NCBI GenBank assembly: GCA_017893485.1
Contig: CM030364.1
Span: 246,773,818-246,837,817, forward strand
DNA: 64,000 nucleotides
From: Hemerocallis citrina
Lineage: Eukaryota > Streptophyta > Magnoliopsida > Asparagales > Asphodelaceae
Direction: 5' to 3'
Shown: positions 3,209-64,000 of the stretch, piece after piece
Layout of the letters: each line of letters opens with the position of its first letter
How positions within the stretch are numbered: the first letter of the stretch is position 1
Program-made: the position numbers and the translations under genes
The notes under the pieces: generated by a model
Told to the model about the DNA's origin: nothing
Seen by the model: the letters and a program-made list of their open reading frames with translations, nothing else
The model's database searches: none

Positions 3209-3876
3209 GAGTTTTTTATATGGGGCAACTGCATTTGTAAATTGAAGTTGTATTTTATTAGGCCTAGACTCGCTTTTTCAGAAACCGAGTTTAGTCTTCA
3301 GCTCATCGCTTTCTGAGAAAGCGAGTGTTGAGCCTGTATGTATTTTACAAGCAGACCCAAGACTCGTTTTCTGAGAAAGCGAGTCTAGTAGAAAACTCAT
3401 CGCTTTTTCGGAAAGCGACTGTGGAGAACAATGTTTTTCAGAGATCAAGCTGATCTCTGGAAAACACTCTACTCCACAATCGCTTTTCAACCGATGTAGT
3501 TTTAACTACACTCGCTTTCTCAGAAAGCGAGTGTTGAGTCTGTATGTTTTTAACAAGCAGACGCACAACTCGCTTTCTGAGAAAGCGAGTGCAGTTAAAA
3601 CTACATCGGTTTTTCGAAAAGCGATTGTTGAGTAGAGTGTTTTCTAGACATCAGCTTGATCTCTGGAAAACACTCTACTCCACAGTCTCTTTCCTAAAAA
3701 GCGAGGAGTTTTCTACAAGACTCGCTTTCTCTGCTTGTAAAATACTACAGGCTCAACACTCGCTTTCTCAGAAAGCGATGAGCTGAAGACTAAACTCGGT
3801 TTTTGAAAAAGTGAGTCTAGGCCTAATAAATACTTTCACAAGTTGCAAATTTAGTTGCCCTTTATACAAAACATGT
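3209..3876. repeat. Large foldback (inverted repeat) built from CTCGC..GCGAG hairpins
   Basis: The left arm from 3209 (GAGTTTTTTATATGGGGCAA...) pairs with the right arm ending near 3876 over about 300 bp per side, with the centre near 3542. Examples are TATTAGGCCTAGACTCGC at 3258 against its complement ending near 3830, and CTGTATGTATTTTACAAGCAG against the matching bases around 3735-3760. Within the arms the smaller hairpin CTCGCTTTCT / AGAAAGCGAG around one central base recurs (for example 3511-3531 and 3569-3589), with variants around 3306, 3363, 3400, 3720 and 3760. It lies just past the 3' end of the element A PMD gene. Any transcript across it would fold into long double-stranded RNA. 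Confidence 0.88.
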
Positions 3877-4200
3877 ACCAATTTTCAACTTCACCAATTC
3901 ACTTCACCAATTCACTACACCAATTCACCTCACCAATTCACACACCCCATACGAAATAAGCTTCACACAAACATTCACTACACCAATTCACTACACCAAT
4001 TCACCAATTCACTCGCAACACTCTCAATCACACAAACATTCAGAACTTTGAAAAAAAGAAACAATCACACACTCACACACCTCATACGAAATTGCATTAC
4101 TTCATACATGTAACATCACAAAACATTAGAAAACAAGTTCACAACATTGAAAGAAACTTTCTTCCTACGAACTAATACAAACATTACATAATTAATACAA
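3877..4200. repeat. Low-complexity CACCAATTCAC-type repeat
   Basis: Short imperfect repeats of CACCAATTCA and CTACACCAATTCA fill most of 3890-4010, followed by AT/CA-rich sequence. It lies between the PMD 3' end and the foldback of element A. No gene is visible. Confidence 0.6.
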
Positions 4201-4323
4201 AATAGGCTTCACGGATCGGGTGTGAAGAAGGTGGAAGGTCTCCTTTGCCTTTTACCCCGTTGTGGAGTGGCTTGTGTCACACGGAACATCAGAATCGGAT
4301 CCTCTTCTTGTTGTTGTGTCCCC

Positions 4324-6367
4324 TCAACTTGTATCTAGACTTTTCATCTTCTTCTTCGGAATCGTTTCTAGGACGATGTGGGGGTTTGTGCGTGTACTTG
4401 TTCGATGAGCGGGAGTGGTTAGAATAGCATCTAAGGTTGCTCCCCCGCCCACAGTAACAGCTTGTGCATGACATGATGCCAACATCTCGCGTGCAAAGTT
4501 CTTCACCGGATCCACGACGTTGCTCCTCAACACAGCAGCACATTTTTTAGCCATAGTCCAAGTCTGGCTCATCTACAAAATATGAGAAGTTGTAATATTA
4601 AATACTGTGAATGTATATGTATACGAAAACACTAGCAAAACTTTAAAAAATACAACAAAACTTAAAAACTTACAATTGTACGAAGAGCCGATGCCTTTGG
4701 TTGGAACATAGGTAAATTCATCGAATGTTGATCTGCTGGTTCGGTTGCTGGTCGACGAATCGAGACTACCACACCTGCAGGAGTCTGCACTGTCGGAGAT
4801 ATATAGCGTCTCGTCATCCTCTCGTACCAGGCCATGTAATTCGCATGCACCGATCGATCAATCAAATGGAGGAATGTCACCAATGATTTCGTCTAACCGG
4901 TGCTTATTCCATCTCTCAACATATGTAGAAAAGCTTGCGGCCCAATTATGTCCGGATAGTCGACCCATTCCTGTAATAGAATGCATATCAGCATTGAACA
5001 GTTCGGCAACATGAATCATTTGAAGGAGACCAAACTGACGTAGCACTCTCTTTACATAGTAGAATTCAACTGTGCCAAAGTTGATTAGTGGTGCTTTAGT
5101 TAACCACAGATCGTGCATGTACAAGCAAATAGGCGGCAGTCGAGCAACAAGCGCCTCCGTGTAGGGCATCCACACGACGCAATCATCTACCAACCCATCC
5201 AACTCATCATGGAAGTACGTCAGGCATCTGTTGAGGTTGGCCGTCCATGTGAGATTGCCGGACCAGTACACACCGAGTGGAGGTAACATGTGCTAGTACT
5301 CGGGGAGATGGATCCAATTGGGTGATTGCCTCCGCACTACGGGTCGACCCACATGAATACGCTCCCAACTCCAGACTTGTAGTAAGATCATTGGTCCATT
5401 CATTTGCATTGAACCAAGACTGCACAAACACAAACTCTTGTACAGGGACAACAACGCGGCACTACCCCAACTGTACTGTCCTACTCTTCCTAGATCGGCA
5501 ATCAATGGGAGGTACATCAAGGAGACTGAATGACCAGTCGAATTTGGAAACATCATGCCATCGAATAGTGTAAGGATGTAGGCCCTACAGTAGCACTGAA
5601 CCTCCTCCTCAGTGGAACCTTCATTCAATCGATTCTTGAATGTGTCCTTCAACCGAATAAATTTTTCATTTAATGCTCCGGTTTCCACTTCGACACCAAG
5701 GTACTGTTCCACTAGATATACCGGCTCGAAGTCCATTGTGTCAGTCACTGCATGCCCATCAACTGGACGACCGGTGAGTACAGAGACGTCCTGCAGTGTC
5801 ACGGTCATCTCCTAGCTGGCAGGTGAAAGGTGTGTGTTTCAGGCCGCCATCTCTCAAGCAGTGCGGTAGGAAGAGGTCGATCACATTTGATGGAGCTCAT
5901 CAGTGCAATACCATATAATACACAGTCCCGTGGGATCTCGTGAATCCATGGGTGCATAGGCAGTGGATGACCCCCCCTAAATGTACATTCCTTGGATTCA
6001 CCTTCCCACACATCCTTCGAACGGTGATGCAACTGGAGAGTAAGGAGTGTAGGGTCGAGGGGACCTGGACCTCTGGGAGGAATATAAGATGATGAAGGGG
6101 CTAAAGAAGAAAGATTTGCCTCATTTGGATTAGTTGGGACCTATACAACAATAACATTTACATTAAAAGACCGATATTATATTTTATTGTATGATAATCA
6201 AACTAATCAAATATAAACAATTATTCACTTATATTAGTACGCTCGGTACCACCATGACGACCACCACGTCCACCGCGAGGAGGTGGGCCAAAAGAAGTAC
6301 GTGGTCCATCGCAGCGAGGAGGTCTACTACTCGATCCTTCCTCCACATTCCCCATCGTGTGTGCCAT
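4324..6367 (-). pseudogene. Plant mobile domain (PMD, aminotransferase-like/MAIN-like) protein of element A, decayed
   Basis: PMD proteins (PF10536 family; MAIN/MAIL in Arabidopsis) are nuclear proteins found as host genes and inside transposons. Exon 1 starts at the ATG complementary to 6365-6367 and is Gly/Arg-rich (RGGRGGRHGG). An acceptor before 6140 begins exon 2, which carries ERWRPETHTFHLP, GEMTVTLQDVSVLTG, CRAYILTLFDG, YLPLIADLGRVGQYSWGSAAL, WSWERIHVGRP, LPPLGVYW, INFGTVEFYY and YMAWYERMTRRYISP, in that order as in other PMDs. A last exon (about 4572-4324) begins TWTMAKKCAAVL and matches exon 3 of the copy at 61129-61521. Lesions are a frameshift at about 5805-5816, TAG at 5293-5295 (in HLPEY*HMLPP, where Trp is expected), and a frameshift at about 4860-4880. 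The gene is surely PMD and surely broken. The exon 1 donor is uncertain. Confidence 0.88.
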
Positions 6368-7082
6368 TTATAATACAAGAGAGTATACTACAACTAAAAA
6401 CAATTATTATTAACTATACCAAAATATATAACCTACATATATCTACATATATCCAATTTTCTATTAGAGCAAATCTACATATATAACCGATCTACATATA
6501 TAACTTATAGTTGTTTTTTTTTGAAACTCAATTCCTATTTTCCGTATCAAAATATATACTCCAAACTACATACCTAAATATATACTCCAAACTATATTCC
6601 GTATCAAAATATATACTCAAAACTACATACCTACAAAAATTTTGCTTGTTGTTTATTAAAAAATCAACAAGTTTGGGTGATTAACACAACATTAAAAAAG
6701 GAAGAGTGATAAATATACCGTAAGCTTTACCCCTAAATTCGAAGCACTCCACCTCCTTCAACCGCAAGCTTTACCCCCAAATTCGAAGCACTCCACCTCC
6801 TTTAACCGCAAGCTTTACCCCCAAAATTCGAAAATCAACACAATCTTGGATATTGGGGTATATGGTTTTTGGAGTTAAATGAGGATGAGAGAAGTGGAAA
6901 ATCGAAAGAAGATGAGAAATGCGAGGATTTTATGAGTGAATCGACGTATTTTGGTGGGTTAATGGCCGAAATGAGAGCAAATCTAGGATGGGTTAGGGTT
7001 TCGTTAGAAGAGGAGGAGGAAGATAGAGAGTAAAAGAGTAAGTGAGATCTGATTGAGAGCATGGGGGTTAAACAGTCCCAAT

Positions 7083-7197
7083 CGACACTTGCTTTCTGAA
7101 AAAGCGAGTTTGGGTTAAACCCCATCGCTTTTTCAGAAAACGAGTCTAGGCTATTGAAAACCAAAGCCTCACACTCGCTTTCTGAAAAAGCGATGGA
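7083..7197. repeat. 5' hairpin array of element A (continues at 11065-11095)
   Basis: Three imperfect hairpins of the CTTGCTTTCTG/AAAAAGCGAG type lie at about 7085-7107, 7120-7143 and 7172-7195. A fourth half (CTCGTTTATTCGGAAAGCG) lies beyond the hAT at about 11068-11088. They use the same stem as the foldback at 3209-3876. They sit directly upstream of the pyrimidine-rich 5' UTR-like stretch of the PMD gene, so they are in promoter position. The hAT insertion at 7205/7206 splits the array. Confidence 0.75.
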
Positions 7198-7439: not shown

Positions 7440-7476
<37 letters not shown>

Positions 7477-20400: not shown

Positions 20401-23400
20401 AGTAGTTGTAATAGTCTATGAAGCACAGATATGGGTACTGGTGCGGGTACGGCTCAACACGACACAGATACATGGCTATGTGATTTAGCACAGATATGGG
20501 TACTGGTGCGGGTACGGCTCAACACGACACAGATACATGGCTATGTGATTTTACAAATTAGTAGGATTCGGGTGGATTGATGGGTGCATTAAATATAATA
20601 TATTTTGTATTATACCTATAAATAAAAAATGTTTATCTTGTTAAAAATGCAAATATTTGAACAATTTCATAGAACTATAAGAATATATTATAATTATGAT
20701 CAAAACTATTGGTATACTTGTTTTGTGCTTGGGAATAACTTGAAACAAGAAGTTTTTATTAATTACACTATGGCCCAAACATTTATCTAAATATAATGAT
20801 CACCAAAAGTTGTAAAACTATATTAAAAAATTGGGTACTCTTTGGGCACGCAGCCGAGAGTACCCAATGAGTTTCGGCACCTTATACGCACCTGACATGG
20901 GTACGTTGGTCATTTGGAAGTACTCGTGCTTCCTAGGTAACAGGAGAATGATAAACGAATGAGAGCTAACCTCCCTTTTGCAACTCCTCGTCCTCTTCAA
21001 ACCGCGATATTTGGATCTTGCGATCCGATTTAAGGTGGGTTCTTGATCCGGATATCTTAAACCTAGGGGTGGTATACCGTACCGTACAAAAATTACTATA
21101 CCGTCTATCGTACCGGAATACTTGGTACACAAATTTCTCTACCATTACCGTGCCAAAATTTTGGTACTACCGAGTTCGGTAATACCGAAATATTGGTATG
21201 GTAATGGTAGTACCTTGGTAGTACCGGACATCAAGAAATATGGATGTACCAATTTCAAACTTTGTTTCTCATGACCGACTGGCACAATAAACAGATATAT
21301 GCTTTATATATGTCCAACAATATACTCAGATATCAATAAAAAAACATGTTTCCTTAAATATAAAGTTAATCATTCACCTTGCCCACAGAGGAATGTATTT
21401 CCTTCTACGCCTAATCTCATCATCTCCATCTTCATTGTCAGAGTTTCTGTATGGAGACATTCCATAAGATTACACATCACAACTCTCCTTAACAATAGAT
21501 GCTCGTCTCAAGCGATCCCGATTGATAACCACCTTAAACAACAAGCAACAAATAAAGCATTGTCAACCGTGATGGTAAAGACCGCCTGTATTAATATAAA
21601 AGAGTGAAGGTCGTATATGCTAATGGTCTATATATACACATGTCGATCAGCTGTAGCACACCAAACAGTGGCAAGCTGCATTAGTGCAGCATGCTAAGCA
21701 AAGCTTGTATAAATTTAAAAGAGTCAAGCTCATATATGCTAATGATCGATATATATACACGTCTTTTCTGAATAAATAAATTAATATACTGAAGACAAGA
21801 GACTAACAAGCTTTCAACTAATGTAACAATAGATAATTGATAATAGAGTTGTCGTATTTTTCAACTTTGTCTAAGAATTTAAATATATACTAGCAATATT
21901 ATGGGAAACATCTTACCTTAGTTTGTTAAATTCCAAACATGATAGTGTCGTACCACTGTGCTATTTGAATATATTCAGTTCAGTTATTTGTTACAAACAA
22001 AAGCTGTTATTTGCTCTGTTAGTTATGCTTGTTAGTAGGAGGTGAGGAAAGAGGACGGAAAGAGAAGAGGGAAGAGGACTCAAGAGACGGCTACGACGAC
22101 TAGGGTAGAAAATCAAAAAAATGAAAAGAAAGAATGGGCCTGGGCCTGGGTTTTAAAATATAAAAATTAAATTAAATATATATTAAATATATTCGGTACG
22201 GTACGGTATACCAACGGTATAAAAATTTTGTACCAGTACCATACCATCAAAAATCGGTATAGTACAATACCGAAAATTTGGTACGGTACTACCAAGTTCT
22301 GGTATTTTTTGGTATGGTAATGGTATGGTACGGTAATATGGTATTTGGTATGGTACGGTAATATGGTATTTTTTGACACCCCTACTTAAACCAGTGATTC
22401 ACATATGACGTTTTCCATATATTTAAAATGAATATCTTTATTCATTAACTCATCATTTTCTTGTCAAACTCTTCTCAATTCGTTATGGAGCTTGTTTTAA
22501 TTTTTCTTTTGCGTATAGCAATCTCTGTAACTTGTAATTATAATTTAATTTTCTAGCTCTATCTTCATCTCTACATACACATGTATTTTACTCAGATGAG
22601 TTCCCAACTCATTCTATCCCTGTCGTACCACATATTGCTTAAGGTAGCGTATTGCGATCCCGTACCTGTGCCAAGAACCGAAGTGTACTGCAATCCTGGT
22701 AACACTGGCTAAGGATAGGTCAAGTTATTGCGAAAAATTTCAAGATGTACTGGTTAGTGGTTAGAGGGCAACTTCATTTAAATTTATTATGTCCATTATA
22801 GCAGTTGGTCTAGGCATGCTTCTAGTTTTAGAGGCGTAACATGTGGTAGGAGGTGACTTTTCAATGCTTGAGAGGTGCCGAGAAGTTATTCCCCTGAATA
22901 TGGAGGAAGTAGAGCGACCTTTGCTTTTTAGAACATTAGTTGAGTGCAATAAGCCAACTCTTAGAATGCAATGGGTGTGAGGATAAGTTGTAGTCAGCGG
23001 GGAGTATTCAAGTTACTCTTGTCAACATATAGTCGAAGTGAGGTTTAAAGCTGGAATATCATTGATGTGAATTATGCAGGTCAAAATAAGATCCCAGAGC
23101 ATTTGTGTGGAACACGTTGGTAATGACTAATGAAAAATAATCTCTACGGAATGTCGGTGGGTCAGGATGTTCTTCTGAGCAAGGTTGACTGATTGTATCT
23201 TTGTTTTGGGCAATTTATTTTTGTGAAATTGTGTGCAATTAATGTAATCAGTATTATTGTTGACCTTGAACGGTCCAACAGTATAATTTTTCAGATCATT
23301 ACTTTGCAGTTTGCACCACAGAAACTGGCTTTTTAAAAATAAATAAATATTTGTCTATTTTTTAAACTATTTGCAGAAAGAGGACAGTTACCAAATTAAT

Positions 23401-25004
23401 TGCGCTCGGGGACTCAACAACTAAACTTACCGTTTCCAACAGCGAGCTTAATTATTTCGTGCTCGCCGTATGGAACAAGGGGCCTAGTTTTATTTTTTGG
23501 AGAAACTTGCCGTTCCCAACTGCGAGTGTAGTTCAAAATTATCAAACAAGACTCGTCGTTCCCAATAGTGAGGTTCTTTATACTAGACTTGCTGTTGGGA
23601 ACGACGAGGTTCACAAAGAGTGAAACTCTATGTTGGACTTAGTAAATTTTTCGAAAACAAACTTTATAGAATAGCTCGTTGTTGGGAACAACGAGTCTTG
23701 TTTAAAAATTTTGAACTAAACTTGCTGTTTCCAACAACGAGTCCAGTATAACCCCCATCGCCGTTGGAAACGGCGAGTATTGTCTGAAAATTTTGAACTA
23801 AACTCGCCGTTGGGGATGACTAGTTCTCAACAAAAAAAATTACACTCACCAGTTCCCAACGGCGAGCTTAGAGCACGAAATAACTGAGCTCGCCGTTGGG
23901 AACGGCGAGTGGTAGTTGTTGAGTTCCCGAGCGCAATTAATTTGACACCTGTCATCTTTTTGCAAATAGTTTCGAAAAACACCGTAGTTTTAAAAAAAAT
24001 TCCAGAAACTGAATGTTAGCCTTATTGACTCTTACAAGCCATTTTCAACTTGAATGCTTGATTGCAAGTTTGCAACACGTTGAATCTGAACCATATTCAC
24101 GAAAATGCCTTCTATTGAACAGTTCACTCTTTGTTTCTTTTCGGAAAAGGGAACATAACCTGCTTGCCTGAGGGCATAATCGTCAGTGATTTACCCTTGC
24201 CAAGTTACATCTTTGCGTGCTGAATAATTTTTACAATCTCCCCGCTCGCTTGCTCTCTCCGGCTCCACCTGCCGCACCCCATGCTTGTGCATGGGCACAC
24301 ACATGTTGGTAATATATTGTTTCTTTTCCCTCTGCAACGGCCCACTCATTTAGCAATTTTGGCCTTGTATGGTTGGCTCATATCTCCAGTTAGAACCTGC
24401 CATGGAGGGGTAATGATTGTTCATTAGTACCAATTAGACACAATCAAAGAATTAAGCCTATTGTACATTTAAAAAAAAAGATTGGTTTATTTGCATGTTA
24501 CTCATCTCTCGTAAAACTGTTTATCTTCACAGGCTTTTGATGAAGCTATCTCAGAGCTGGACTCTTTGGGTGAAGAATCTTACAAGGATAGCACTCTGAT
24601 CATGCAGCTTCTTCGAGACAATTTGACTCTGTGGACCTCTGACATCACGGTCGGTTTCTCTCTCTCCCACTCACACACGCACACAAACAGGCGCACACAC
24701 ATGCACATGTTTTTCCTTGACAACAGCCATCAAGTCACATTTGCCACCTCATTGCATGATAATCATCATCATTTTTCAAAGTTTGCTTTTCTAATGCTAG
24801 CCACTACAAGCATCTTTTTCTCCCTCGATAGATAATTGATCTTCATTGATGTAGAAGCGCACCTGCAGTACACATCACATACACATATCTACCCATCTAC
24901 ATTCCTGACTCCAATTATTTTATTAAAAGTGGTTTGTTGGTTTGCAGGAGGATGCTGCAGATGAGATTAAGGAGGCCCCAAAGGAGTCTGGTCAGGGGCA
25001 GTGA
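11301..25004 (+). CDS. 14-3-3 protein (non-epsilon-like), 257 aa, five coding exons
   Basis: 14-3-3 dimers bind phosphoserine/threonine motifs on many client proteins in cytosol and nucleus. Coding exons are 11301-11695, 11778-11856, 13028-13150, 24533-24649 and 24948-25004. All introns are GT..AG and phases are consistent, giving 257 residues, normal for the family. Visible signatures are [15 protein letters not shown] near the N terminus, [20 protein letters not shown] (box 1), [34 protein letters not shown] and the C-terminal box [21 protein letters not shown]. The ligand-groove Lys, Arg, Arg and Tyr of these blocks are present. The variable tail ends [11 protein letters not shown]. Exon 1 is GC-rich compared with its TE surroundings. 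Intron 3 is 11,382 bp, swollen by insertions. No lesion was seen; it is likely functional. The isoform cannot be fixed. Confidence 0.97.
11857..13027 (+). other. 14-3-3 intron 2
   Basis: This is a 1171-bp AT-rich intron between GT at 11857 and AG at 13026-13027. I see no element with clear ends or TSD and no coding potential. Confidence 0.85.
13966..14364 (+). mobile_element. Non-autonomous Helitron
   Basis: The element starts TCTATATAATAAAAC, ends CTAG, and sits between A (13965) and T (14365), the Helitron insertion rule. A perfect hairpin (ACGTGCC-GTA-GGCACGT, 14330-14346) stands 14 bases before the CTAG end. At 399 bp it is too short for a Rep/helicase gene. Confidence 0.75.
14760..15110. 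repeat. Imperfect tandem repeat, unit about 100 bp
   Basis: The block GATAAAATGAGAGGGTAATA followed by CTAGTTGTACT...TATCTAG and CACAAGAAACACAT...CAATCAACCATA recurs three to four times (starts near 14775, 14875, 14968 and 15005). Unit length varies and the third copy is truncated. It is intronic and non-coding. Confidence 0.65.
16089..17002. mobile_element. Non-autonomous hAT element
   Basis: This is a 914-bp element with terminal repeats TAGGGGTGGACA at the left and its complement at the right. It is flanked by 8-bp TSDs CAAGTAAC at 16081-16088 and 17003-17010. Subterminal regions are rich in CCGAACCGACC/CCAATCC motifs, in opposite orientation at the two ends. There is no transposase; the interior is AT-rich. 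Confidence 0.85.
17450..17764. mobile_element. Stowaway-like (Tc1/mariner) MITE
   Basis: This is a 315-bp element with 26-bp terminal inverted repeats CTCCCTTCGTTTC.../CTCCCTCCGTTTC..., followed by AAAATATAAGTCA, with one mismatch between the arms. The left flank is TA (17448-17449) but the right flank is AA, so the expected TA duplication is imperfect. Confidence 0.75.
18096..20396. repeat. Long-range inverted repeat pair (about 38 bp arms)
   Basis: CATGTGTTTGTTGTGTGGAC and the following AACAACCAATTTTCAT at about 18098-18133 recur as the reverse complement at 20358-20393. They bracket 2.2 kb that includes a C-rich run (18943-18964) and short inverted blocks around 19135-19300. This could be an old TIR element, but no TSD was found and no transposase is visible inside. 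Confidence 0.4.
20422..20551. repeat. Tandem duplication, 65 bp x 2
   Basis: Positions 20422-20486 and 20487-20551 read the same, starting AGCACAGATATGGGTACTGG and ending GGCTATGTGATTT. No difference was noticed, so the duplication is recent. Confidence 0.88.
21064..22384. mobile_element. Non-autonomous hAT element
   Basis: This is a 1321-bp element with ends TAGGGGTGGTATACC and, on the other strand, TAGGGGTGTCAAAAAATACC. It is flanked by 8-bp TSDs CTTAAACC at 21056-21063 and 22385-22392. Subterminal regions carry many GGTACGGTA/TACCGTACC motifs in mirrored orientation. No transposase frame was found. Confidence 0.87.
23328..24002. mobile_element. Mutator-type foldback MITE with CTCGCCG hairpins, 9-bp TSD
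   Basis: This is a 675-bp foldback. The outer arms are AT-rich (right arm GAATTTTTTTTAAAACTA, then GAAACTATTTGCAAAAA), followed by AATTAATTGCGCTCGGG in both arms. Flanks are identical 9-bp copies CAGAAACTG at 23319-23327 and 24003-24011, the Mutator signature. The inside is a chain of hairpins with stem CTCGCCGTT/AACGGCGAG around GGG or GGA (for example 23889-23909 and about 23757-23777) and degenerate copies. The terminal motif is shared with element A and with 27443-27940. It has no coding capacity and lies in 14-3-3 intron 3. Confidence 0.9.
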
Positions 25005-25627: not shown

Positions 25628-27440
25628 TATTTTATTTTATTTTATTTTTTTTGAGGGAAAAGATGGAATAAGGCCACCCTGTTTCATTTATAAGAAATTA
25701 ACAAAATAATCCCAACATACTGGGGCAAGTTACAATCTACAGACAGAAAAAAAACATGAAGCGACATGACCAGTACATATAATCAGCTCTCACTCTAAAC
25801 TACGAGAACCAACTAATTGTATGTCCGTCAAGCAAGCTTCGAGCACCCACCTCCACGGCACGCGCCCACCTACCTGAAGCGAATCATGTGGGATTTGAAA
25901 ATTTGCCGCTCCCATCCTTCTACCTCACCAACACAACTTCACACATTGCCCAATCGGAGTCGCACCCAAAAGGAGAGCCGTAGAGAGGGTACTCACATCT
26001 GTCACGCTATAGCTCTCATCAGCAATTTCTCACCAAACAAAACACTCGGTAACCCTAACCACTAACACCGACAAGGAGAGAGCCGTAAAGAGGATACCTT
26101 CGCCTCTCACACGCATCTACTCTCTTTAGTGATTTCTCACAAACACTAACAGACACCAACACAGAATCAAGAGAAGCAAATCATTACTCTCTCACTCTCT
26201 TACTCTCTCTCTCACGCAAAATCCGAAACAACCACAACTAACTGAAGCATCACCTTTCCCTCTCGTCCCTACGGGCGGTGGACGTTGTAGATTGCAGGTT
26301 TATTGATGAGGGCGTAGTGGCGGCGCTGTTGCGAATCCTGTGGCCTTTGATTAACGGGTGTCGAATTCAGGGTGCGACTACCCCACTACCGAACAAAAAC
26401 ACATACATCTCCACCTCAACAATTTCTACAGGACACCTCATGGGGGGACCCCGTCTGCAGGCCCAAGCCCCACATAGTGCTGTAAAGGTGCGCACCTATA
26501 GGGGGACCCCATCTTCGGGCCCTAGCCTCGTAACCGTGCAATACCGATCCCAAGCACCTCCTCCACTCCCCCCACACAAACAATAACCAGATCAAACCGC
26601 TACCATCTCTAACTCCGGTATTACCATCACACGTACTCTTTCTTCTTCGCATACACAACCAGCAACTCAACATCCAAATCGCAGCTGCAGATCAGCACGG
26701 TTGGCGTTGAGTGCGCAAACATGGTGGCGGTAGCAATGGCGCCGCAACCAGCGCCGAAGAAGGGGACAACAATAAGACACAGTGGGGATGAGCAAACTCC
26801 TCAATCTTCCGACACAGAGGCAGGTCCCCATCACACCAGCAGCGATGGCTACTCCAAAAGCACAGATCTCGCCGCCAGTGTTCGAGATTTCAGATCTGGA
26901 AGGGGGAAGGGGACGCCGGTGGTACAAGGGGGAAAGGGACAGAGGTGAGTGGGCTGTCTGGGGGGCGCGATGGTGGCCGTCGTCGATCTGGGACGACGCG
27001 CGGCTTCGACGAACAGCCGCCGTCCAACTCGCAGCTCTGGGATGACGCACAGCTTCGAGATCTCAGATCTGGAAGGGAGAACCGGGACGGTGCGCGGCTA
27101 CGACCAACCACCGCCGTCCAACTTGCGCGGCTTCGACGAACCGCCACGCAACAAAAATCGCGACTGGAGACTGGAGTGGTTCACCTCGTGGAGCGTGCTC
27201 GCCGCTTGGATGGAGGAGGAGTAAGGAGGGACGATGGGGGGGGGGGAGGAGCGTTGAGGGTAGCCGCCGCCGCCCTAGGGCTTGTAGATTTAGGGTTTTT
27301 GTAGATCGGGTTGGTTTTGAAAGGCAAGGAGGAGACTTGGAGAAGAAGAAGTTTACCTAACAACTCTAGATTTCTGACCCCTATTGCTGTTACTTTTCAC
27401 ATCAGTAGCCAACATTTTCAAAACTGTGATGGATAATTAG
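25628..27440 (-). mobile_element. LINE-like retroposon with 17-bp TSD (minus strand)
   Basis: A 17-bp repeat TAGCAGAGAGCCCTATT at 25611-25627 and 27945-27961 brackets this segment. The left edge begins with an interrupted T-run (TATTTTATTTTATTTTATTTT...), i.e. a poly(A) tail on the minus strand. The next 150 bp resemble the 3' end of the LINE at 30822-46673 (similar TTTATTAATAAGAAGTTAACAAAA block). The right part (26240-27360) is GC-rich, with repeats around GATCTCAGATCTGGAAGGG at about 26885 and 27058 and several spurious open frames. No reverse transcriptase is present, so this is an internally deleted or non-autonomous copy, or another kind of retroposed transcript. The foldback MITE at 27443 hit its 5' border. 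Confidence 0.55.
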
Positions 27441-27442
27441 CA

Positions 27443-27940
27443 AAATTTTTTGCAGTACTAGGCTACTTTTTGAAACTTTTTGCGATTTTAGGCCACATCC
27501 CAAATTATTAGCAATTTTGGCTAGCAAGTGCCACGCCAGCAGTGACCGCTATTGGGAATAGCGGCCTCTTCATAGCGACCACCACATTGGACTCCCACAC
27601 TTGGCAGATTTGTATAATTGCAAACCACTTGGAGTAACTGGGGTCGCTATTGGGTGGGCCTAAAAGCGATTCGGTCAACCTGTGGTCGCTATTGGGAATA
27701 GCGACCTTAGTTATACAAGGTCGCTTTTGACAATAGCGACCTCAGTTACTCCAAGTAGTTTGCAATTATACAAATCTGCCAAGTATGGAAATCCGATGTA
27801 TTGGTCGCTATGAAGAGGCCGCTATTTTCAATAGCGGCCGCTGCTGACGTGACACTTGCTAGTCAAAAGTGCTAATAGTTTGTCAACTGGCCTAAAATCG
27901 CAAAAAGTTTCAAAAAGTAGCCTAGTAATGCAAAAAATTC
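27443..27940. mobile_element. Mutator-type foldback MITE with GGTCGCTATT hairpins, 9-bp TSD
   Basis: This is a 498-bp foldback with 9-bp TSDs TAATTAGCA at 27434-27442 and 27941-27949. The arms begin (A/G)AATTTTTTGCA.TACTAGG, then CTACTTTTTGAAACTTTTTG, then GATTTTAGGCCA. The same order and sequence opens element C at 46748. Internal hairpins have stem GGTCGCTATT/AATAGCGACC around GGG (27684-27706) and a CCGCTATT variant (about 27546-27566 and 27820-27840). A longer inner pair (TTGCAATTATACAAATCTGCC and its complement) brings the halves together. No gene is present. Confidence 0.92.
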
Positions 27941-27961
27941 TAATTAGCAGAGAGCCCTATT

Positions 27962-34417: not shown

Positions 34418-34418
34418 G

Positions 34419-34437: not shown

Positions 34438-34491
34438 AAAACATACGAATTGCAGTCCCTCCTCTTTCCGTCGACTAGATCTTCTCCAGCC

Positions 34492-46545: not shown

Positions 46546-46849
46546 TTAAGAATTGGGGTTACATAACAAGTTTGGTTCTAAGTTCACACCTAGATGTAAT
46601 CTATCCAATTCCCAATCTCTAATCTTATTACGGAGAAAAGCTTTTCAATCTTTATTGCCGACCGCAAGGCTATAAAGTAAAACTTGAGGTTGACTAAATC
46701 CATAATTTTTACAAGTCAACCACTTTCTTTGAATACCAAGGGCAAGATAATTTTTTTGCCGTACTAAGCCACTTTTTGAAACTATTTGCAAAAGTAGGCC
46801 ACTTCCTAAACTACTGGCGGTTTGAGCTAGTCGCTGCCATGTCAACAGT

Positions 46850-47160
46850 GGCCGATATTTCCATTAGTGACATTTTCCTTTCGAAGAACGCTAATGGGAA
46901 TAGCGGGCGCTCGTATAATTTTATTGAAAATTTTGTTGGTTGTCGTTATTCCCATTAGCGACCACAACATATGTGTAGTCGCTATAAACGACCTTATTAG
47001 AAAAATATTGAGATACTTAGAGACTTCCAGAGAGCTATGCTCTCTAGAAAAAAGAACCAAACAAAACTTGTGAACTAAGGTTGCTAGTAGGAATAACTCT
47101 ATTCCCACTAGCGACCACAAGTGGGACCCGACCGCTAAAAAAGGTCGGGCTCCCACACAC
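46850..47160. repeat. 5' hairpin region of element C (GTCGCTAATGGGAATAGCG type)
   Basis: Hairpins with CGCTAATGGGAATAGCG (about 46888-46905), GTCGTTATTCCCATTAGCGAC (about 46942-46962) and GTTGCTAGTAGGAATA/TATTCCCACTAGCGAC (about 47080-47116) stand just before the 5' UTR-like sequence. The stem is close to that of the MITE at 27443-27940. The first block is longer and degenerate. Confidence 0.75.
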
Positions 47161-47932: not shown

Positions 47933-50900
47933 ATGGTACAGACGATGGTAGCGGGATCGACCAGTGCTAGGCCCCGAGTAAGTAGTATTCTTTTGTTCAT
48001 TTAAATAATTTTTTTGTTCCTATGTAATGTTGACTAAACATTACTGTATTTATGTATGACGCTGCTGACGAAGGACCTAGTACTAGTGGTCAAGGACATG
48101 GACGACCATTGCGGGGTAGCCGAGGAGAGGGATGTTCTTCGTTTGTCGATGCCGGACATGCATTTTGGTCTACTTTTGCACCTGGAGGACCAGGTTCTCA
48201 TGACTCGAACTTGTTGACATTGTAACATACACATAGATCCCAATGGGTGTGGGACTGTACATCCAGGGAGTGCAGTTACTGTACGCACTCTCTGTTACCA
48301 ATGCACTCAATGACACGATCTCCTAGTCGAGGCTGGTTTCTACGTACTAGGATTGATAGGGAAGATGAAGCTCGATCGTCATCTACTCAAAGCTCTTCTC
48401 GAATGATGGAGGCCGAACACTCATTTGTTCCCTCTCCCTGTAACTCCCTGTTCTATTTGTACATATTTCATTACATAAATTTTTGTATTTCAATTATCAA
48501 TCGAATCTCTTTCTCAGGCATTATTTCATTCTTATTTGAACTCAAATATTTTCGGATCCATTCTAAATATTTGTGAATTTTCATTTGAGTTTAAATTTAA
48601 ACTCTGTACCTGATTAACCATAATCTTAATCCCTAACCCTAATTCATCCTGTAACCCAACCCCATTTAATTCTACCTCCCTTTACAATGATGTCTACTCC
48701 CTATATTTACTATACCCTTACCATAACCGCTTCTCTTTCTCACTCCACAGAAAATCCCACTCCTACTCTACTGCCTCCACCTCCTCCTACTACCCCTTCT
48801 CTTTCTCACTCATCAGCCAACTTCTATTCTCTACTCCCTATATATATTATATACTCGTGTACCCTTGTGCAATATTGCACAAACTTATATAATATAATAT
48901 CTAGTATAACCCGTGCAATATTGCACATAATTTTTTAAAAAATAAGTTTTTTTTTTGGAAACTTCATCTAATAAAATCTATATAATAATGCACGATTTTT
49001 AAAGTTTAATTAAGGAATATGATTCTAATCCAAAATTTGGATGAAGAAGGGGGATGGTTGCCTCCTACTTTTGCTCTCGTTTTTTAATTTTAAAAAGAAA
49101 AAATGAGAAAAATTCTTGAACTAAAAGTGGTTTAGCATAATATATTGTATATATATGTACACTAGACTCACCACACTCCACCTCATCTCTCTCCTATCTC
49201 CTTCATCTCGAGCTCCACAAACCCACAGCCCCACACCACTCCAACCTGAGCTCCTCCTTCCTCCTCCTCAAGAACAACCATGACCATCATCTTCCTCACC
49301 ATCAACACCACCTTCTCCCAAACCCGACAACCACTACCACCAAACTCGCAAGCCAACACTTCATCCCCTACCATTCTCCAACTCAAAGCACGTCTAATCT
49401 CCACCCTCAAACTCCTCCCACAAACCAAACTCGAAGCCCCGACAACCTCACTCCCCCTCTCCACTCACCTTGCTGTCGTACGTTCTCCATCTCACCCGAG
49501 CACCTAACACCCCACTGCCTCCTTCCGACCATCCCCCAACACCTACACCCGCACCTCCACCTCTTTGGTGCTCCACCATCCGCACACAACTAGCACCATC
49601 AAAACTCCCCCAATCAGCCATTGCCTACACCCGAACTCCTCAAACAGCTGCACACCATCTCCTCATTCATCCCGAAACCCTTTAAACTCCAAACAACAAC
49701 TCCTCGCTGCCCCTCAACCAATTTCGACACCATGACACCTCATTTTCTTGCTCATCCCTGCCGTAGTTCCCGCCGTTGGTCGCTGGCTTGCTGTTGTTGC
49801 TGCCCTTATTCACTGTTGCTGCCATTCTTGCTGCCGACGTCGCTTCTTCTTCTTCCCGTGGTTCTCACCACGTTAATAATCATCAAATAAAGGCAAGCAT
49901 TTTTATTGAACTCTTAGCAAGTACCCTAATTATCATCATGTTTTCTTGTCAAATTCAGTTCAAGTTGTTCCATGCTATTGATTCAAAATTCGAATCGTTA
50001 GCACACTTCGTATCGTGTTATTGAATATTCACATTTCTGTCCTGTCATTTTTCCTATTTTGTACTAGGAATTCGACCTAGTTCTCGATACTAACTCCAAG
50101 AACTTTATATATATGAATTGTAGCCCTTTGAGTCTAGAATCTAGAACATCTTACGTTTCTTAATCCGATTAGTAGATTGCAAGTTATTAGCATTTTAGTA
50201 CTTTAAAGTCGGAGTATTCAGATTGTATGTTTTTAAAATGCATCGTCTAGTAAACTAGTTAATAATGCAACCTACTGTTATTATTATGACCTGATAAAAT
50301 CATGCTTACTAATAGACACACATGAGAATGAGATTGTTATTTTGTAGAATTTAATAAGGATTTTATAGTAGAGTTATAAGTCCAAGAACTTGACCGTACA
50401 TTATTGCTTGAACAAGAAACATGTAAAGAATAGAGTGATTGACGTATCTACTATCCTTAGAATGTATTGTATGAATAGCCGTTGGAACCAGCAGAAAGTC
50501 TACTTTCTAGAATCTCTGACGAAACTAGATTCACATTCCCATAGAAGCGGAAAAAGGAGTTTTAATACATACATGTACTGTTGTCCGAATTATAGTTAGT
50601 ATAATTTAACTATATATATTGTTGTTCTTGTAATAATAACTTGTACCGATATAATAGGTCGATAGATTTTCTCATATCATGCATTTTTATACCACTCGAT
50701 AATTCCATGATTACTACCCTTGATACATGTACCTGTTTCACCTCTCGACATACCCATGATTACCGCCTTTGATATTTCCCTGATTCTTGATTAACTATCT
50801 TAATACCACCGTTTCCACTAGTCGTACCGACTGTATGTTCATAATTAATTATTGTAAAAGAATAATAAGTCAGGGTTATAGGGGTACGGCTTAGTAGGGG

Positions 50901-52643
50901 ACAATATATGGAAGTATACTTGGAAGGGGGCCCGTGTTACTTGGAATAGTAATTCCTGCTTGATTACATGTCTTGTTTATTGATACTATCACTCGAATAC
51001 CCGAGTACATAATTCACCACTTATGTCTAAACGTTTACTTGATTGTATGCACCCTAACTTGTGGTATGAGACACATGATTGTGTGCATTAGATAAGATAA
51101 TAAAAAAATGATATACATAATATTAAAACCCGCTTACAATTTACATGATCGCGTTTACAAGTTTACATGTTTTCATTTGCAAGTTTACATGTTCTCTCTT
51201 ACAAGTTTTCATGTTTGTCGTTTACAAGTTTATATGTAACCCGATTACATGATTCTTGATCACATGACACTTGGTTACCGACTACCGTTTATAGACTACA
51301 GCATTATTGGTTATTGACTATTGCATATCGATTGAATATACCATGAAGTTCTGTTTACCGGTTTCCAGTTTTTCGTTACAAGTTTATACTTGTTACTTGT
51401 ATCGTTTCTTGTTGCATGTTCCCGTTACATGCTTACAGTTGTTCGTTTAATGTGTCTATGCTTGTACTATTTGCTATTCAAAGCTTGCTATAACGAACAT
51501 TTTATTCATCTTTTTAGTTAATGTTTATACAAGTATAAATAATGAGATACAGAAGAAACTTGGCGAATAGACTCTCTAGACCGTCATGATGGAATTGCTA
51601 GCTAGTGCTATTTCTCTACCATTATAGTCGCTACTGTATCTATCTAGTCATACCAAACTGTTTATTACATTGTATTTCTTTCAGTACATTATATTCCCAT
51701 GCGTTTTAACCCGAAATTCTTATATCTTAGATATTGGTTATTGTATTCTATTCTTATTCATGTAATTGTTACATGTATTGTTGAGCTTATTGGTATTGTA
51801 TAGCTTATGAATGATGTATATCATTCACTGGGCCTCAGTCACATGCCTGTACTTTCATATAGTGGGAAGTAGGGTGTGACATTCCCCATAGGAGAGATGA
51901 TCATGACACTTTGAACATCATGGTCATCTCAGGACTTCCGATTGATGTGTTGACCATCACAGGAACCATGTGGTTTGATAAGGAGGTGCTCGTGGTAGAC
52001 TTCCTTGGTGTTCCTCTAAATGAGCATACATTTGATGGAGTGTCTATCTGACTGAGTTGGCTGAAGAGTACTTTCAAGAATTTCTTAAACAACGATTCGT
52101 CAGAGTATCAGGTCCTGTGCTACACTCGGGCCTACCGGGTGACACTATTTGGATGTGTCATCTTCCCCAACTCCACAAGAGATGTCGTGCCGCTCATTTA
52201 CCTGCCGTTGATCACAGACCTAAGTCGAGCTAGTCAGTACAGCAGGGGCAGTGCCGCATTAGCTTCCTTGTAAGTAATGGAGCATTGAATGCGAAGGAGA
52301 TGACAAGTCCGAAGTTATTCTATGAGTTTGGTGTTGGGAACACTTACATCTCGGACGATCCCATATAAGTAGGCGGTCATAGGGTGGGTTACAGATGCAA
52401 TGCATGCTGCGATGCAGGCTCCCATTGGGGTGTAAGGGGGGGGGGACATGTGGAGAGATAACCCACTTAGAGTGGTGACTTACCATAGAGACGAGCTTGA
52501 TATGTTTCTAGAGGAGTTCGTCATAGGGGAGCCGTATACACCCGAGAGATTGGAGAGGCTACCACCCGTATGAATGACACATAAGGAGCTATGGTTGACG
52601 ATAACCCACTCGTCAATTTCAGTTTCGTAGAGATGTAATACCC
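47933..52643 (+). pseudogene. PMD protein of element C, decayed and interrupted
   Basis: Exon 1 (47933-47977, MVQTMVAGSTSARPR) is followed by a good donor GTAAGT. Exon 2 resumes near 48060 with GPSTSGQGHGRPLRGSRG and HDSNLLTL, then TAA (48223-48225, Gln expected). It goes on through AGFYVLGLIGKMKLDRHLLK and ALLE*WRPNTHLFP with TGA (48404-48406, Arg expected). Here the solo LTR 48439-51881 is inserted. Without it the frame reads PLPIGEM across the junction, the conserved PMD block. The part after it shows VISGLPIDV, YTRAYRVTLFGCVIFPNST, VPLIYLPLITDLSRASQYSRGSAAL and PLVNFSFVEM, with several frame changes. It ends at 52643 in an LTR. The exon 2 acceptor appears lost. The gene is certain as a PMD and certainly dead. 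Confidence 0.85.
48439..51881. mobile_element. Solo LTR (3.4 kb) inserted in the element C PMD gene
   Basis: It starts TGTAACTCCCTG and ends AGGGTGTGACA. Flanks are CTCCC (48434-48438) and TTCCC (51882-51886), a 5-bp TSD with one mismatch. Removing one copy restores CTC-CCC-ATA-GGA-GAG, i.e. the PMD LPIGE codons. The end and an inner block resemble the solo LTR at 31196-42872, so both belong to one long-LTR gypsy family. It is older, judging by divergence and the mutated TSD. No gag or pol. The block 49160-49870 is CT-rich with spurious frames. Confidence 0.8.
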
Positions 52644-56959: not shown

Positions 56960-57070
56960 GATATTTTTTTATAATATTTTGCCTTAACCTGCCGTTTCCA
57001 ACGACAGGTTAAGGCAAAAGTTTATAAAAAAATATTTCCTTAACCCGTCGTTGACAAGGATGGGTTAAGG
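56960..57070. repeat. 5' hairpins of element B (TTAACC(C/T)G(C/T)CG type)
   Basis: A hairpin at 56986-57012 (TTAACCTGCCGTTTCC/AACGACAGGTTAA) is flanked by TATTTTTTTATAA and its complement. A second lies at about 57041-57068 (TTAACCCGTCGTTGAC/GGATGGGTTAA). They stand just before the leader, as in elements A and C. Confidence 0.8.
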
Positions 57071-59220: not shown

Positions 59221-59283
59221 CTGATGATACATAAATGCATGTAACGCGTACCAACTACATTTAAATTTTTTTGTACATAGATA

Positions 59284-61521
59284 ATGGCTAGAATAAGGCA
59301 AATGAGAAGCCTGTCCAGTACCACTAGTGGTGCACCAACTACAGAGGTAAGATTGATTATTATTATTGTTTTTAAATACGAATATGTAATATTATCTCAA
59401 TAATAATATTTGTTATCTTTGTTTGTGTAGGTTGGTGGCCATCAATCTACATCTGCTGAGACAGGTCCATCGTCCTCAGTTTCTGTTACACCACCTGGAC
59501 CCATGGACACAAACTTACTCACGTTGCAATCCAAACACCGATATGAAGCCATGTGGAATGGGTCCAGTAAGAAATGTAACTTCCGAAAGCACGCGGTTCT
59601 TCCTTTTGACCCCCGTATCACGCTGTACTTAGTTGAGGCCAGTTTCTACGGAGCTAAATTCATGGGGGAGTGAAGCTAGATCGGCCGCTACTTACAGATT
59701 TTGTCGAGCAATGGAGGTCGGAGACCCACACATTCCACATACCAGTGGGTGAGATGACTGTGACCCTCCAAGATGTAGCAATGATAACTGGGCTACCAAT
59801 AGATGGGGACGCCGCAACGGAGAACATGGACTTCGATCGAGTTGAAGTTGTTCGTGATTTGCTCGGTATCGACCTCTAGTTGATAGTTCTCCAAAGAAGT
59901 GAGGCCGTTGAAAAAGAAATCTTTGAAATGTTCCCGCAGATCATGATCAAGATTTATTGTATGAACAAATAGAAGTTGCGAAAGATAAAGCGGGAGCTGA
60001 AGTTTTGGATGAAACTTTCGATGGTAAATCACTGTACATTAGTTGGTTGAAATTTCAGTTCGAGGAGGATTATTTGACTCCCTATTCGGACGAGGAAACC
60101 CTAACCTAGTATGCTCGTGCATACATTTTTAGTATAATCGGAGAGTGATCTTCCCGAACTCATCCGGATCGACCGTGCCGCTAATATACCTATAGTTGTT
60201 GGAAAATTTCCATTATACAGGCTGTTTCAGTTAGGGAAGTGCGGCATTGGCGCTAATGTATATGAATTTGTGCACATGTTCATTAGGTGCCGTACAAATG
60301 GGTGGTCCGATGGTACTACTGCAAATCTGGAGTTGGGAATGCATCCACATCGGACGTCCCCATATTATTGAACCAATACAAGATTGGTTGGCCGACCCGA
60401 GGGTGCCAGAGTTGTTACCTCCTCTAGGAGTATATTGGGTAGGGCGGCACACGTGGGTCGATAACCCACACCATTTAAGCTGCTACACAGATGAGTTAGA
60501 TAACCTGCGGGACGAGTTCGTCAATTGGGAACCGTACTCGACCGCCAGGTTGCAAAGGGTTCCACCGGTCTGTTTAGACAGTGCGCTTTGGTTGACAGCT
60601 GCACCACTTGTGAATTTTGGCGTTGTTGAGTTCCAGTATCCGGATAGAGTGATGAGGCAATTTGGATATCAACAAAAGATTCCCGATGTCCGGTGTTATG
60701 ATAAAAAGTTGCACGAGGTGAGGGAAACGGGACGAGTGCCCAACTTCGATTGGGCTGATTACCATCGTTACCATGTGGCCAACTGGAACACCATGCGGCA
60801 TCAAATGACACCGAATATGATGTTCTTTGCAATACCGTATGATGGCTCCCTCCAACAGGCATACATGATGTGGTACAAGCGGGTAACATGGTTGTATGTT
60901 TCTCCAAAGGCCGCTGTACTAGCCGGTGTGCAGATTTCGATTCGCCCAACCCAGGCAGAACCACCTCCGGCATATTCCTCCTCCCAGCCGGATTACCAAC
61001 CAAAGGCTGCGACATATCGAAAAATGGTTAGTCAAATTTCATATACTTAGTATGCATGTATTGTTATTTGAGGTGGGTGATATGTTAAGTATGCATGTTG
61101 TTTAAATGAAAATTTCAACCTAATTTAGATTGAAAGCACATGGAAAAACGTTCGGACAGCTACTCGCGTCTTGAAGAGTAAGGTACCCGAGAGCTTTAAG
61201 GAGATAATGCGGGAGATGCTAAAGGCGTGCCGTTGTACTCTTGAGGACGCGGGTGAAGGTCCGCAACTTGAGGCGTATTTGAAAGCCAACGTGCCAGCAA
61301 CGGGTTCTAGGCGAAAGAGCGTGACAAGGCAGGGAATTCACATCGCAGAGCCACAACAAGTGCAACAACAGCAAAATCCTGAAGAAGTTGAAATGGAGCA
61401 GTGGTCGGATGACCCTGAATCCCCAGGGACACAAGGTAGATGGCAAAATCCTCAAAGGAAGCGGAACCTGCCCAAGCAATTCACATCAAGCGGTCGCAAG
61501 CCGCGTGGCTGTAAAAGGTAG
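59284..61521 (+). pseudogene. PMD protein of element B, three exons, several lesions
   Basis: Exon 1 is 59284-59346 (MARIRQMRSLSSTTSGAPTTE), exon 2 59431-61026 and exon 3 61129-61521, all GT..AG. Exon 2 contains TNLLTLQSKHRYEAMWNG, DPRITLYLVEASFYGAKF, VKLDRPLLTDFVEQWRSETH, GEMTVTLQDVAMITGLPIDG, YARAYIFSIIG, WSWECIHIGRPH, LPPLGVYWVGRHTW, LVNFGVVEFQYPDRVMRQFG and MMWYKRVTWLYVSP. Exon 3 starts IESTWKNVRTATRVLKSK and ends in a Gln/Glu- then Arg/Lys-rich tail. Lesions are a one-base loss in the G-run near 59663-59668, TAG at 59877-59879, a further frame change by 60060, TAG at 60107-60109, and a one-base loss near 60141-60147. From 60247 to 61026 the frame is clean. It is best-preserved toward the C terminus. 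It is the guide copy for reading elements A and C. Confidence 0.92.
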
Positions 61522-61917: not shown

Positions 61918-62400
61918 AAATCTCTCTACTTAACCCGTTATTGACGATGATGGGTTAAATGAGTAACCCGTCATTGGTGATGGCGGGTTAAATAGAGAGA
62001 TATTGGAAGTCCTTTATCCCCTACAGACCAAGTCTTAATAAAGTACTGCCAATATCTCTCTACTTAACCTGTTATTGGGAATAACGGGTTAAGATCACTT
62101 AACCCGTTATTCACAAAAACGGGTTAAGTAGAGAGATATTGGCAGTACTTTATCCCTTACATATCAAGTTATCATAATGTACTGCCAATATCTCTCCACG
62201 ATAACGGGTTAAGATCGCTTAACCCGTTATCCTCAACAACGGGTTAAGTAGAGAGATATTGGCCATACATACCAAGTTTTCATAATATACTGCCAATATC
62301 TATCTACTTAACCCGTTATTGATGATAACGGGTTAAGTGATCTTAACCCGTTATTCCCAATCACGTGTTAAGTAGAAAGGTATTTTTATACTTTCTACAA
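61918..62400. repeat. 3' hairpin array of element B (AACCCGTTAT/ATAACGGGTT)
   Basis: Four to five units of about 110-120 bp. Each opens with ATATCTCTCTACTTAACCCG and closes with its complement GGGTTAAGTAGAGAGATATT, separated by GGCAGTACTTTATCCC-like spacers. Inside, stems AACCCGTTAT and ATAACGGGTT surround GGGA, GATG, TCCTC or similar tips. A clean example is AACCTGTTATTGGG/AATAACGGGTT near 62066-62090. It lies beyond the PMD 3' end, like the foldback of element A. Confidence 0.88.
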
Positions 62401-62660: not shown

Positions 62661-62699
62661 AGTAAGTGGTTGTTTTTGGTTTTGATTAATTAGGTTAAT

Positions 62700-63860
62700 A
62701 TTTGTAGCTCTCCGATCTAAAACGCACTGAATCTTTTCCATTATTGGGTTCTACATGTGGGGTTCTACATGTGGTGTTCCACATGTAACGGAGTATAATC
62801 CGATGTGATTTTCACAATTTCATTCAAATCCCCCAAATCTGGTAGTTTTGAACAAAATCATCCAAACCCTAGAATATCTCTTCAATCGTCAATGGAGTTC
62901 TGTTACCGCTCCAGCGAAGAGAGACCGGCACCAACACACTGAATCTTTTCCATTATTGGATTCTACATGTGGCGTTGTACATGTGGTGCCAACTTTGTAG
63001 AGTGAAATGTAATAGTAGGCAAGCTATGGACTTGTATTTTTTTTCCCACAATTGGATCTGATGACTCTCCGATCTAAAACGCATTGAATCTTTTTCAATA
63101 TTGGGTTCTACATGTGGGGTTCTACATGTGGTGCCCACTATGCAGAGTGAAATGTAATAGTAGACAAGTTATGAACAAGTTGTTTTTCCCCAACATTTGA
63201 CCTGATGACTCTTCGATCTAAAGCGCACTGAATCTTTTCCATTATTGGGTTGTACATGTGGTGCCCAATTTGTAGAGTGAAATGTAATAGTATCCAAGTT
63301 ATGTACTTTAGGTTTTTCCAATTTGGCACTATATGTAGGGATATACATGTAGTGCAAGTTATCAAAGAGCATTATTTCAAGGATCTTGTGAATGAGATTG
63401 GATTGGAGTTTTGTCAACTCATGGATTCCATAACTTGCCTACTTTTACATATCACTGTGGGTGTGTGGGCAGCACATCTAGATCCCCACAAGTAGAATCC
63501 AACATAGCATCCTCGGTCCTTGCTCTTTTTCTCTTCATAGTTTCCCCTTCACTCAGATAGATTTTGCTAAGTCTATGTCGAGGAATGGAGTGTTCATTTT
63601 TGTTTAGGATAACTTTGCCTACTATTATTGGAGACTCGACAAAAGTGGGCACCACATGTAGATCCCCACATGTAGAACAAGTCCATAACGGGCCTATTAT
63701 TACATTTCACTATACAACATAGGTACCACATCTACAACAAGGCCATAACTTGCCTACTATTATTGGAGACTTCCTCCCCGTACATGTAGTACAAGTCCTT
63801 AACTTGATTTTACAATCGAAGAACAGAATTGGCAAAGCTGCGGGGACTGAGAGGAAGTGG
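62700..63860. repeat. Direct then inverted repeats with CTACATGTGG core
   Basis: A unit with CTCCGATCTAAAACGCACTG, AATCTTTTCCATTATTGGGT, TCTACATGTGG, TGTAGAGTGAAATGTAATAG and AAGTTATG recurs near 62706, 62935, 63066 and 63211. The same motifs recur in reverse complement at 63630-63800 (CCACATGTAGA, TATTACATTTCACT, CATAACTTGCC). The whole is thus a large, degenerate foldback inside element B. No gene is seen. Confidence 0.7.
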
Positions 63861-63954
63861 AAGAAAGAGTTTTAAGATTTAATCCTAACCCTAACAATAA
63901 CCCTAACACAATTTGTTTGTATTGTATATTATTATTTGTTTTATGAACTTCTGC

Positions 63955-64000
63955 AAATATCTCTCTACTGAACCCGTTTTTGGAGATGACGGATTAAGTA
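63955..64000. repeat. Half hairpin of the element B type at the window end
   Basis: ATATCTCTCTACTGAACCCG followed by GGATTAAGTA repeats the pattern of 61918-62400, showing that element B continues beyond the window. Confidence 0.7.

Follow-up and report, generated by a model that had tools for sequence, protein, structure and literature searches.

A 64-kb stretch of the 3.78-Gb genome of Hemerocallis citrina (assembly GCA_017893485.1, contig CM030364.1, positions 246,773,818 to 246,837,817; hereafter the window) contains the relics of three transposons that carry a plant mobile domain (PMD) gene, designated A, B and C, together with two miniature inverted-repeat transposable elements (MITEs), M1 and M2, and all five bear arrays of short palindromes. 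The PMD/palindrome elements are DNA transposons of a known superfamily, the Mutator-like elements (MULEs). The stem of the palindromes is specific to the PMD clade of the element, and the amount of stem change between clades does not track that of the protein. We propose, with a probability of about one half, that the arrays are sites on duplex DNA, and that an element-encoded protein, most likely PMD, would read them and thereby mark the copies of its own family.

The unit of the arrays is a dyad of 21 bp, consisting of two 9-bp arms around a 3-bp centre. Aligned from the centre, the half-sites read CTCGCTTTC in A, CTCGCCGTT in M1, GTCGCTATT in C and M2, and CCCGTTATT in B. The arm of every family contains CG at positions −7 and −6, which is retained in 255 of 274 half-sites, a retention that the site definition favours. 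Under a strict rule (9-bp arms, 3-bp centre, at most one mismatch and at least three G or C in the arm), the window contains 33 palindromes, 17 of them of the named stem types, versus 1–12 (mean 5.75) in 20 dinucleotide shuffles; the site counts for single elements given below follow a looser rule. An initial annotation of the window, made from its letters alone, had placed palindromes in A, B, C and the MITEs, and they are indeed present there. The C-type sequence CGCTATTGGGAATAGCG has 4,927 exact copies genome-wide, and its reversed control has none.

The initial annotation had also noted that the two sides of a stem change together. When sites were seeded on one arm alone, in 23 arrays from the window and the fetched loci described below, the worse arm was within three mismatches of the family half-site in 104 of 126 distinct sites, in agreement with that observation. 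The same non-majority letter occurs on both sides in 23–49 sites at each of positions −9, −8, −5, −3 and −1 and in only 4 and 5 sites at −4 and −2, respectively; symmetric alternatives to the CG at −7 and −6 were absent from these one-arm-seeded sites. A conserved GGG tip, originally described for several families, was not recovered: the tips vary, A has TGA/TCA, and CCC/GGG accounts for just 84 of 179 sites in a separate set of 20 loci that had been picked by the GGG-tipped C-type motif. Neither the PMD of A nor that of B has a match in these 20 loci. What the families share instead of the tip is the CG in each arm and the pairing of palindromes 33–36 bp apart.

A PMD profile search of the whole genome returned 19,736 candidates, the best 117 of which were scored. 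From these, 11 loci were hand-picked by score, open reading frame (ORF) length and spread, without prior inspection of their DNA. They comprise one presumed host gene (L038, 717 aa) and ten transposon-like loci (ORFs of 406–549 aa), which are linked to MULEs through termini, transposase or DNA similarity among themselves. All ten transposon-like loci have arrays of at least three sites that include the 33–36 bp spacing; the host locus has no array of this type and carries another, GACGGAACA-like palindrome type. The arrays are located upstream of PMD and also downstream of it, where they separate the two convergent genes; L031 additionally has palindromes close to its opposite end.

The comparison of tree and stem type that had been suggested in the initial annotation was made on this sample, with a PMD tree of 12 elements (A, B and C included) and the host PMD as outgroup. 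Tree and stem type agree in 12 of 12 elements. Among the fetched elements, L029 bears the stem CTCGCTTTC, L036 CTCGGTCTT, L030 GTCGCTATT and L032 GCCGTTATT. The five stem types require four changes on the tree, which is the minimum, and none of 200 shuffles was equally low. B and C are on long branches; the PMD of C groups with the GTCGCTATT PMDs with support of 100/99. The thirteenth element, L039, which is outside the tree, also fits, with a PMD 89% identical to that of L029 and the same stem. A Mantel test on all 13 elements gives r=0.69 (p ~5e-5), a correlation driven by near-copies. Such concordance is also expected from vertical inheritance of whole elements alone; stronger evidence than the tree is provided by the shared stem of separate arrays and by the conservation of palindromes over spacers. 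Eight elements have arrays on both sides of PMD. Five of them have the same consensus on the two sides, and in L029 and L039 the sole difference is at position −1, with T in the upstream and C in the downstream array; the upstream array of B in this comparison is a single decayed site. Among 21 arrays from 13 elements, the CTCGCTTTC arrays contain no CTCGGTCTT-type site within three mismatches, and vice versa; the types GTCGCTATT, GCCGTTATT and CCCGTTATT overlap at this threshold.

The palindromes have outlasted the sequence between them. Aligned arrays of the same stem type in the clade of A are 82–94% identical in palindromes and 49–70% in spacers. Between the CTCGCTTTC and CTCGGTCTT types, the corresponding values are 66–68% and 43–55%, with much of the pair register retained and new letters on both palindrome arms. 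The commonest spacing (up to 130 bp) is 33–36 bp, slightly above three helix turns, in 7 of 7 stem families, with a tie at 46 bp in M1. No palindrome array appeared in 200 dinucleotide-shuffled loci. Among real background pieces of 2.5 kb (47 pieces, after 33 of 80 were dropped for a site close to a known stem), 5 of 47 contained some palindrome array and 0 of 47 contained one with 33–36 bp spacing.

Other palindrome arrays were seen in the fetched stretches. Those of L018 (1503-2196) and L014 (3072-3744 and 8248-8986), of types CTCGCTAAC/TCA and GCCGTTATT, again have 36-bp spacings, and these chance finds suggest that the genome contains more stem types. A different array type, GACGGTACA/ACA in L018 (5721-6163) and GACGGAACA/ACA in L038 (104-511), has sites mostly 52–61 bp apart (also 40 and >250 bp), with no PMD MULE beside it in the fetched stretches of these two loci. 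Six CACGTG-like palindromes (TACACGTGC, centre A-N-C) lie 64–179 bp apart in L026 (734-1323).

The elements in the window comprise the following features, where TSD denotes a target site duplication and TIR a terminal inverted repeat:

2149..3059, + strand: element A, transposase gene of the MURA type, of which the 3′ part with a SWIM zinc finger (E 5.5e-6) remains, truncated upstream; 75.7% identity in 288 aa with the L029 transposase ORF (898 aa); nucleotide match 2149-3058.
3254..3830: element A, intergenic array of the CTCGCTTTC/TSA/GAAAGCGAG type; 10 sites (3269-3815), many in 36-bp pairs; aligned with the arrays of L029, L031, L035 and L036; forms a long inverted repeat as a whole.
4665..6167, − strand: element A, PMD relic with a broken frame, convergent to the transposase; PF10536 E 2.6e-34 on 5296-5811; 73–84% identity, piecewise, to the L029 PMD.
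7088..7194: element A, array 5′ of PMD; 3 sites, the 7088/7124 pair being 36 bp apart; 6911-7193 aligns to L029 6826-7094.
23328-24002 (23319..24011 with TSD): MITE M1, with long TIRs and the perfect 9-bp TSD CAGAAACTG at 23319-23327 and 24003-24011.
Within 23328-24002: array of M1; 11 palindromes of the CTCGCCGTT type, part of them decayed.
27443-27940 (27434..27949 with TSD): MITE M2, with long TIRs and the perfect 9-bp TSD TAATTAGCA at 27434-27442 and 27941-27949.
Within 27443-27940: array of M2; 4 palindromes, GTCGCTATT / GCCGCTATT.
46748..46859, + strand: element C, MULE-type end with homology to M2 (111 bp at 75.7% identity).
46851..47115: element C, decayed array of the GTCGCTATT type; 4 sites, the 46851/46887 pair being 36 bp apart.
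48169..52600, + strand: element C, PMD relic split into 48169-48442 and 51914-52600 and found by tblastn with the L030 and L029 PMDs.
56988..57064: element B, two palindromes, both decayed, on the upstream side of PMD, at 56988 and 57044.
59446..61038, + strand: element B, PMD relic; PF10536 E 3.4e-32 on 60235-61047.
61934..62367: element B, array 3′ of PMD, CCCGTTATT; 7 sites, with pairs of 33, 35 and 35 bp.
63973..63993: element B, another B-type palindrome, likewise decayed, at the edge of the window.

No transposase for B or C was found in the window, and A, B and C are not seen there with both ends. The elements are assigned to the MULEs because of their 9-bp TSDs, their long TIRs and a transposase convergent with PMD. 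Long TIRs with 9-bp TSDs are present in M1, M2, L030 and L031. The whole element of L031 spans 2877-8659 with the perfect 9-bp TSD TAACACCCC, and that of L030 spans 3533-8443 with TIRs, the perfect 9-bp TSD TGAGAACCC, arrays and a PMD ORF; no transposase match was found within the latter. The gene order is displayed with open frames by L029: transposase (898 aa), array, PMD on the opposite strand (517 aa) and array, the left end being beyond the locus. Its transposase ORF matches the MULE DDE domain (MULE, 4.6e-16), DBD_Tnp_Mut (3.7e-8) and SWIM (4e-7). The grouping of the MITEs with the PMD transposons in the initial annotation is supported by MULE termini common to both; between the TIR of M2 and the L030 terminus, identity is 83% along 129 bp. 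PMD capture by MULEs was already known (PMC5418596).

The PF10536 scores are 119 bits for A, 112 bits for B and 268–287 bits for eight MULE ORFs (L034 and L039 were outside this Pfam scan) against a Pfam cut-off of 34.9. The PMD frames are under purifying selection, with dN/dS of 0.15–0.30 in seven pairs (an eighth is saturated). An AlphaFold prediction with three PMD fragments from the window had a pLDDT of 31.6 and a pTM of 0.20, and a sequence comparison of PMD with solved structures gave a single match at E 1.6, which is not meaningful. Weak matches (E<1) to DUF1985, a VANC domain, were detected in 7 of the 8 MULE PMDs scanned, with a best E of 0.0018, and the PMD of A matches at E 0.012. 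This likeness may serve as a weak lead and does not amount to VANC membership. The PMDs of L029, L031, L035 and L036 also have a sub-threshold match (best E 0.0069) to DUF7745, another domain of unknown function.

According to our proposal, a site would be formed by two 9-bp half-sites around three mostly free bases, in the non-coding parts of PMD-MULEs and MITEs. The fixed core, the mostly free centre, the pair spacing and the conservation above the surroundings argue for a protein site on duplex DNA that is read by an oligomer, and a dimer of dimers probably occupies each 33–36 bp pair. Since stem type matches element type, the reader would be an element protein, and the family-specific stems would confine each protein to its own family. 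L030, where a PMD ORF was identified and a transposase match was not, favours PMD as that protein. The marking would probably lift host silencing and activate promoters, as VANC does for VANDALs; a counter-silencing role of transposon-made PMD proteins has already been suggested in a review (PMC8616336). The initial annotation had envisaged a hairpin read by, and co-evolving with, the PMD protein or transposase of the element. The stem does follow the PMD clade, which upholds one part of that idea; a hairpin is unlikely to be the form that is read, because the 33–36 bp pairing, the fixed CG and the free spacer letters suit a dimer on duplex DNA.

Several points weigh against this proposal. The sample covers one genome and 11 of its best 117 PMDs. 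With one element per stem type, the Mantel coefficient is r=0.26, and 25 of 120 permutations are as high, so that PMD and stem distances are not correlated. The 3′ arrays of L032, L037 and B contain no perfect dyad. The best DUF1985 score is 18.7 bits versus a cut-off of 35.1, and the match is absent in the PMDs of L032, B and the host gene. In L010, a transposase fragment accompanies C-type sites, and the 10 kb of this locus gave no PMD match. Moreover, PMD and transposase are not separable as readers in full elements because they are inherited together. Finally, the host PMD proteins MAIN and MAIL1 promote silencing (PMC7156037, PMC5418596), so that an anti-silencing PMD would presumably act as a rival of its host relatives.

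The joint inheritance of PMD, transposase and arrays leaves room for a MURA-like MULE transposase as the protein that binds the arrays, with another role for PMD, which we regard as rather unlikely. TnpA of Spm binds subterminal repeats. The arrays are likewise found close to element ends and persist in MITEs made up of scarcely more than TIRs and arrays, and L010 would suit such a reader. MURA and TnpA, each encoded by its element, also bring about hypomethylation of that element (PMC10398659). However, arrays are intergenic as well, and their distance to the nearer end is at least 1.1 kb in L031 and some 3 kb or more in L029; L030, for which a PMD ORF but no transposase was matched, has retained its arrays. 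Sequence divergence points both ways. Relative to L029, the PMD is less conserved than the transposase in L031 (72% versus 89%, the latter over 181 aa only), L033 (54% versus 68%) and L032 (51% versus 52–55%), which would suit a PMD that follows its sites and is no test of it; in A, the PMD pieces (73–84%) have evolved no faster than the transposase (76%).

Two further explanations are less probable. Template switching is able to copy one arm of a palindrome onto the other, and if it acts at quasi-palindromes, together with gene conversion and tandem duplication, arms and copies could be homogenised by neutral concerted evolution without a reader. The arrays do contain tandem and inverted duplications, and symmetric variants, GTCGCGATT among them, reappear in units spaced by 103 bp. 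However, this process does not explain why palindromes outlast spacers, why the same CG is found in all families or why the 33–36 bp spacing occurs in 7 of 7, and we consider it improbable. More improbable still is a function as hairpins or cruciforms, in single-stranded DNA or RNA, for example as a source of siRNA or as a foldback structure. The palindromes are foldable and whole arrays are long inverted repeats, but folding needs neither a fixed CG nor a recurrent site spacing. Furthermore, one-sided arm mismatches are frequent (perfect dyads make up 46 of 137 sites in 21 arrays), and the centre letters vary in most families. This evidence against a folded single strand is indirect.

VANDALs are MULEs, and the known system that the elements are most like is the VANC/VANDAL anti-silencing system of Arabidopsis. 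VANC binds short family-specific motifs that recur at the termini, between the genes and in introns, and it removes silencing marks; the motifs are YAGTATTAY in VANDAL21 and AGTTGTCC/AGTTGTAC in VANDAL6 (PMC5735166). Common to both systems are an accessory protein gene adjoining the transposase and a repeated short motif that differs among related families (PMC5735166); the elements described here have family-specific non-coding motif repeats that diverge between related elements. VANC is also more variable than the VANDAL transposase (PMC5735166). The two systems differ in the protein, PMD here and VANC there, with a possible relation through the sub-threshold DUF1985 matches, and in the sites, which are 21-bp palindromes with a fixed CG, often in 33–36 bp pairs, recognised here from sequence only, versus one-orientation 9-mers in VANDALs.

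Other systems share single aspects. In Spm/En, TnpA activates and demethylates its own element (PMC10398659); Spm/En, however, belongs to the CACTA superfamily. MuDR and Abermu combine a transposase with a second gene on the opposite strand (mudrB and ORFR), but ORFR and MURB lack mutual sequence similarity, and palindrome arrays are unmentioned in the available extracts on these elements. PMD-C captured by MULEs is likewise located inside MULEs (PMC5418596), but forms transposase fusions in several grasses and Amborella, in contrast to the separate convergent genes observed here, and the available part of that article does not mention cis arrays. Galileo has several sites for an element protein (THAP) in its long TIRs; it is, however, a Drosophila element of the P superfamily in which the transposase itself is the reader (PMC3688188). 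In the passages covered by searches of the open-licence part of PubMed Central, palindrome arrays of PMD elements were not described. The promoter motif that the initial annotation had associated with MAIN/MAIL1 is ‘DOWN’, which reads CATGCAGTTT in the promoter of MORC1 (PMC9899485). It was rejected as a shared site, being unlike the stems and having 7 matches in the window (at most one mismatch) versus 5.2 expected, which is no enrichment.

Family-specific palindromes in step with PMD look like a lock-and-key marking of own copies. We tentatively entertain a broader scheme, in which plant MULEs other than VANDALs would run a VANC-like system of self-recognition and anti-silencing; PMD would be its reader and a remote homologue of DUF1985/VANC, the dozens of palindromes of an element would switch in concert upon a change in the specificity of the protein, and MAIN/MAIL1 would be the host-side relatives. 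If so, sequence-specific self-recognition with changing targets would not be peculiar to VANDALs, and the several stem families of a single genome would constitute a natural series for a protein-DNA recognition code. PMD was still described as a domain of unknown function in 2021 (PMC8616336), and the open PMD frames paired with candidate targets offer a direct test of the function of PMD, and hence of MAIN/MAIL1. Palindrome type could also help in deciding which autonomous partner a MITE copy belongs to.

The neighbourhood of the elements in the window contains additional repeats and genes. A 340-bp tandem repeat (4.8 copies, 57524-59161) is located between the upstream palindromes and the PMD of B, and repeats whose building block is the palindrome ACATGT (GGGTTCTACATGTG and a 145-bp unit) lie beyond the B array at 62746-63300. 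To the right of element A is a hAT transposase fragment (7767-8804, − strand; Dimer_Tnp_hAT 5.7e-24, hAT-like RNase-H 2.6e-9), separated from A by a GGGTCGGGTCGG-rich stretch at ~7215. An open 627-aa ORF at 34345-36225 (+ strand) matches Retrotrans_gag (1.2e-14) and lies within a GC-rich stretch, with tandem repeats of 214 bp and 71 bp nearby.

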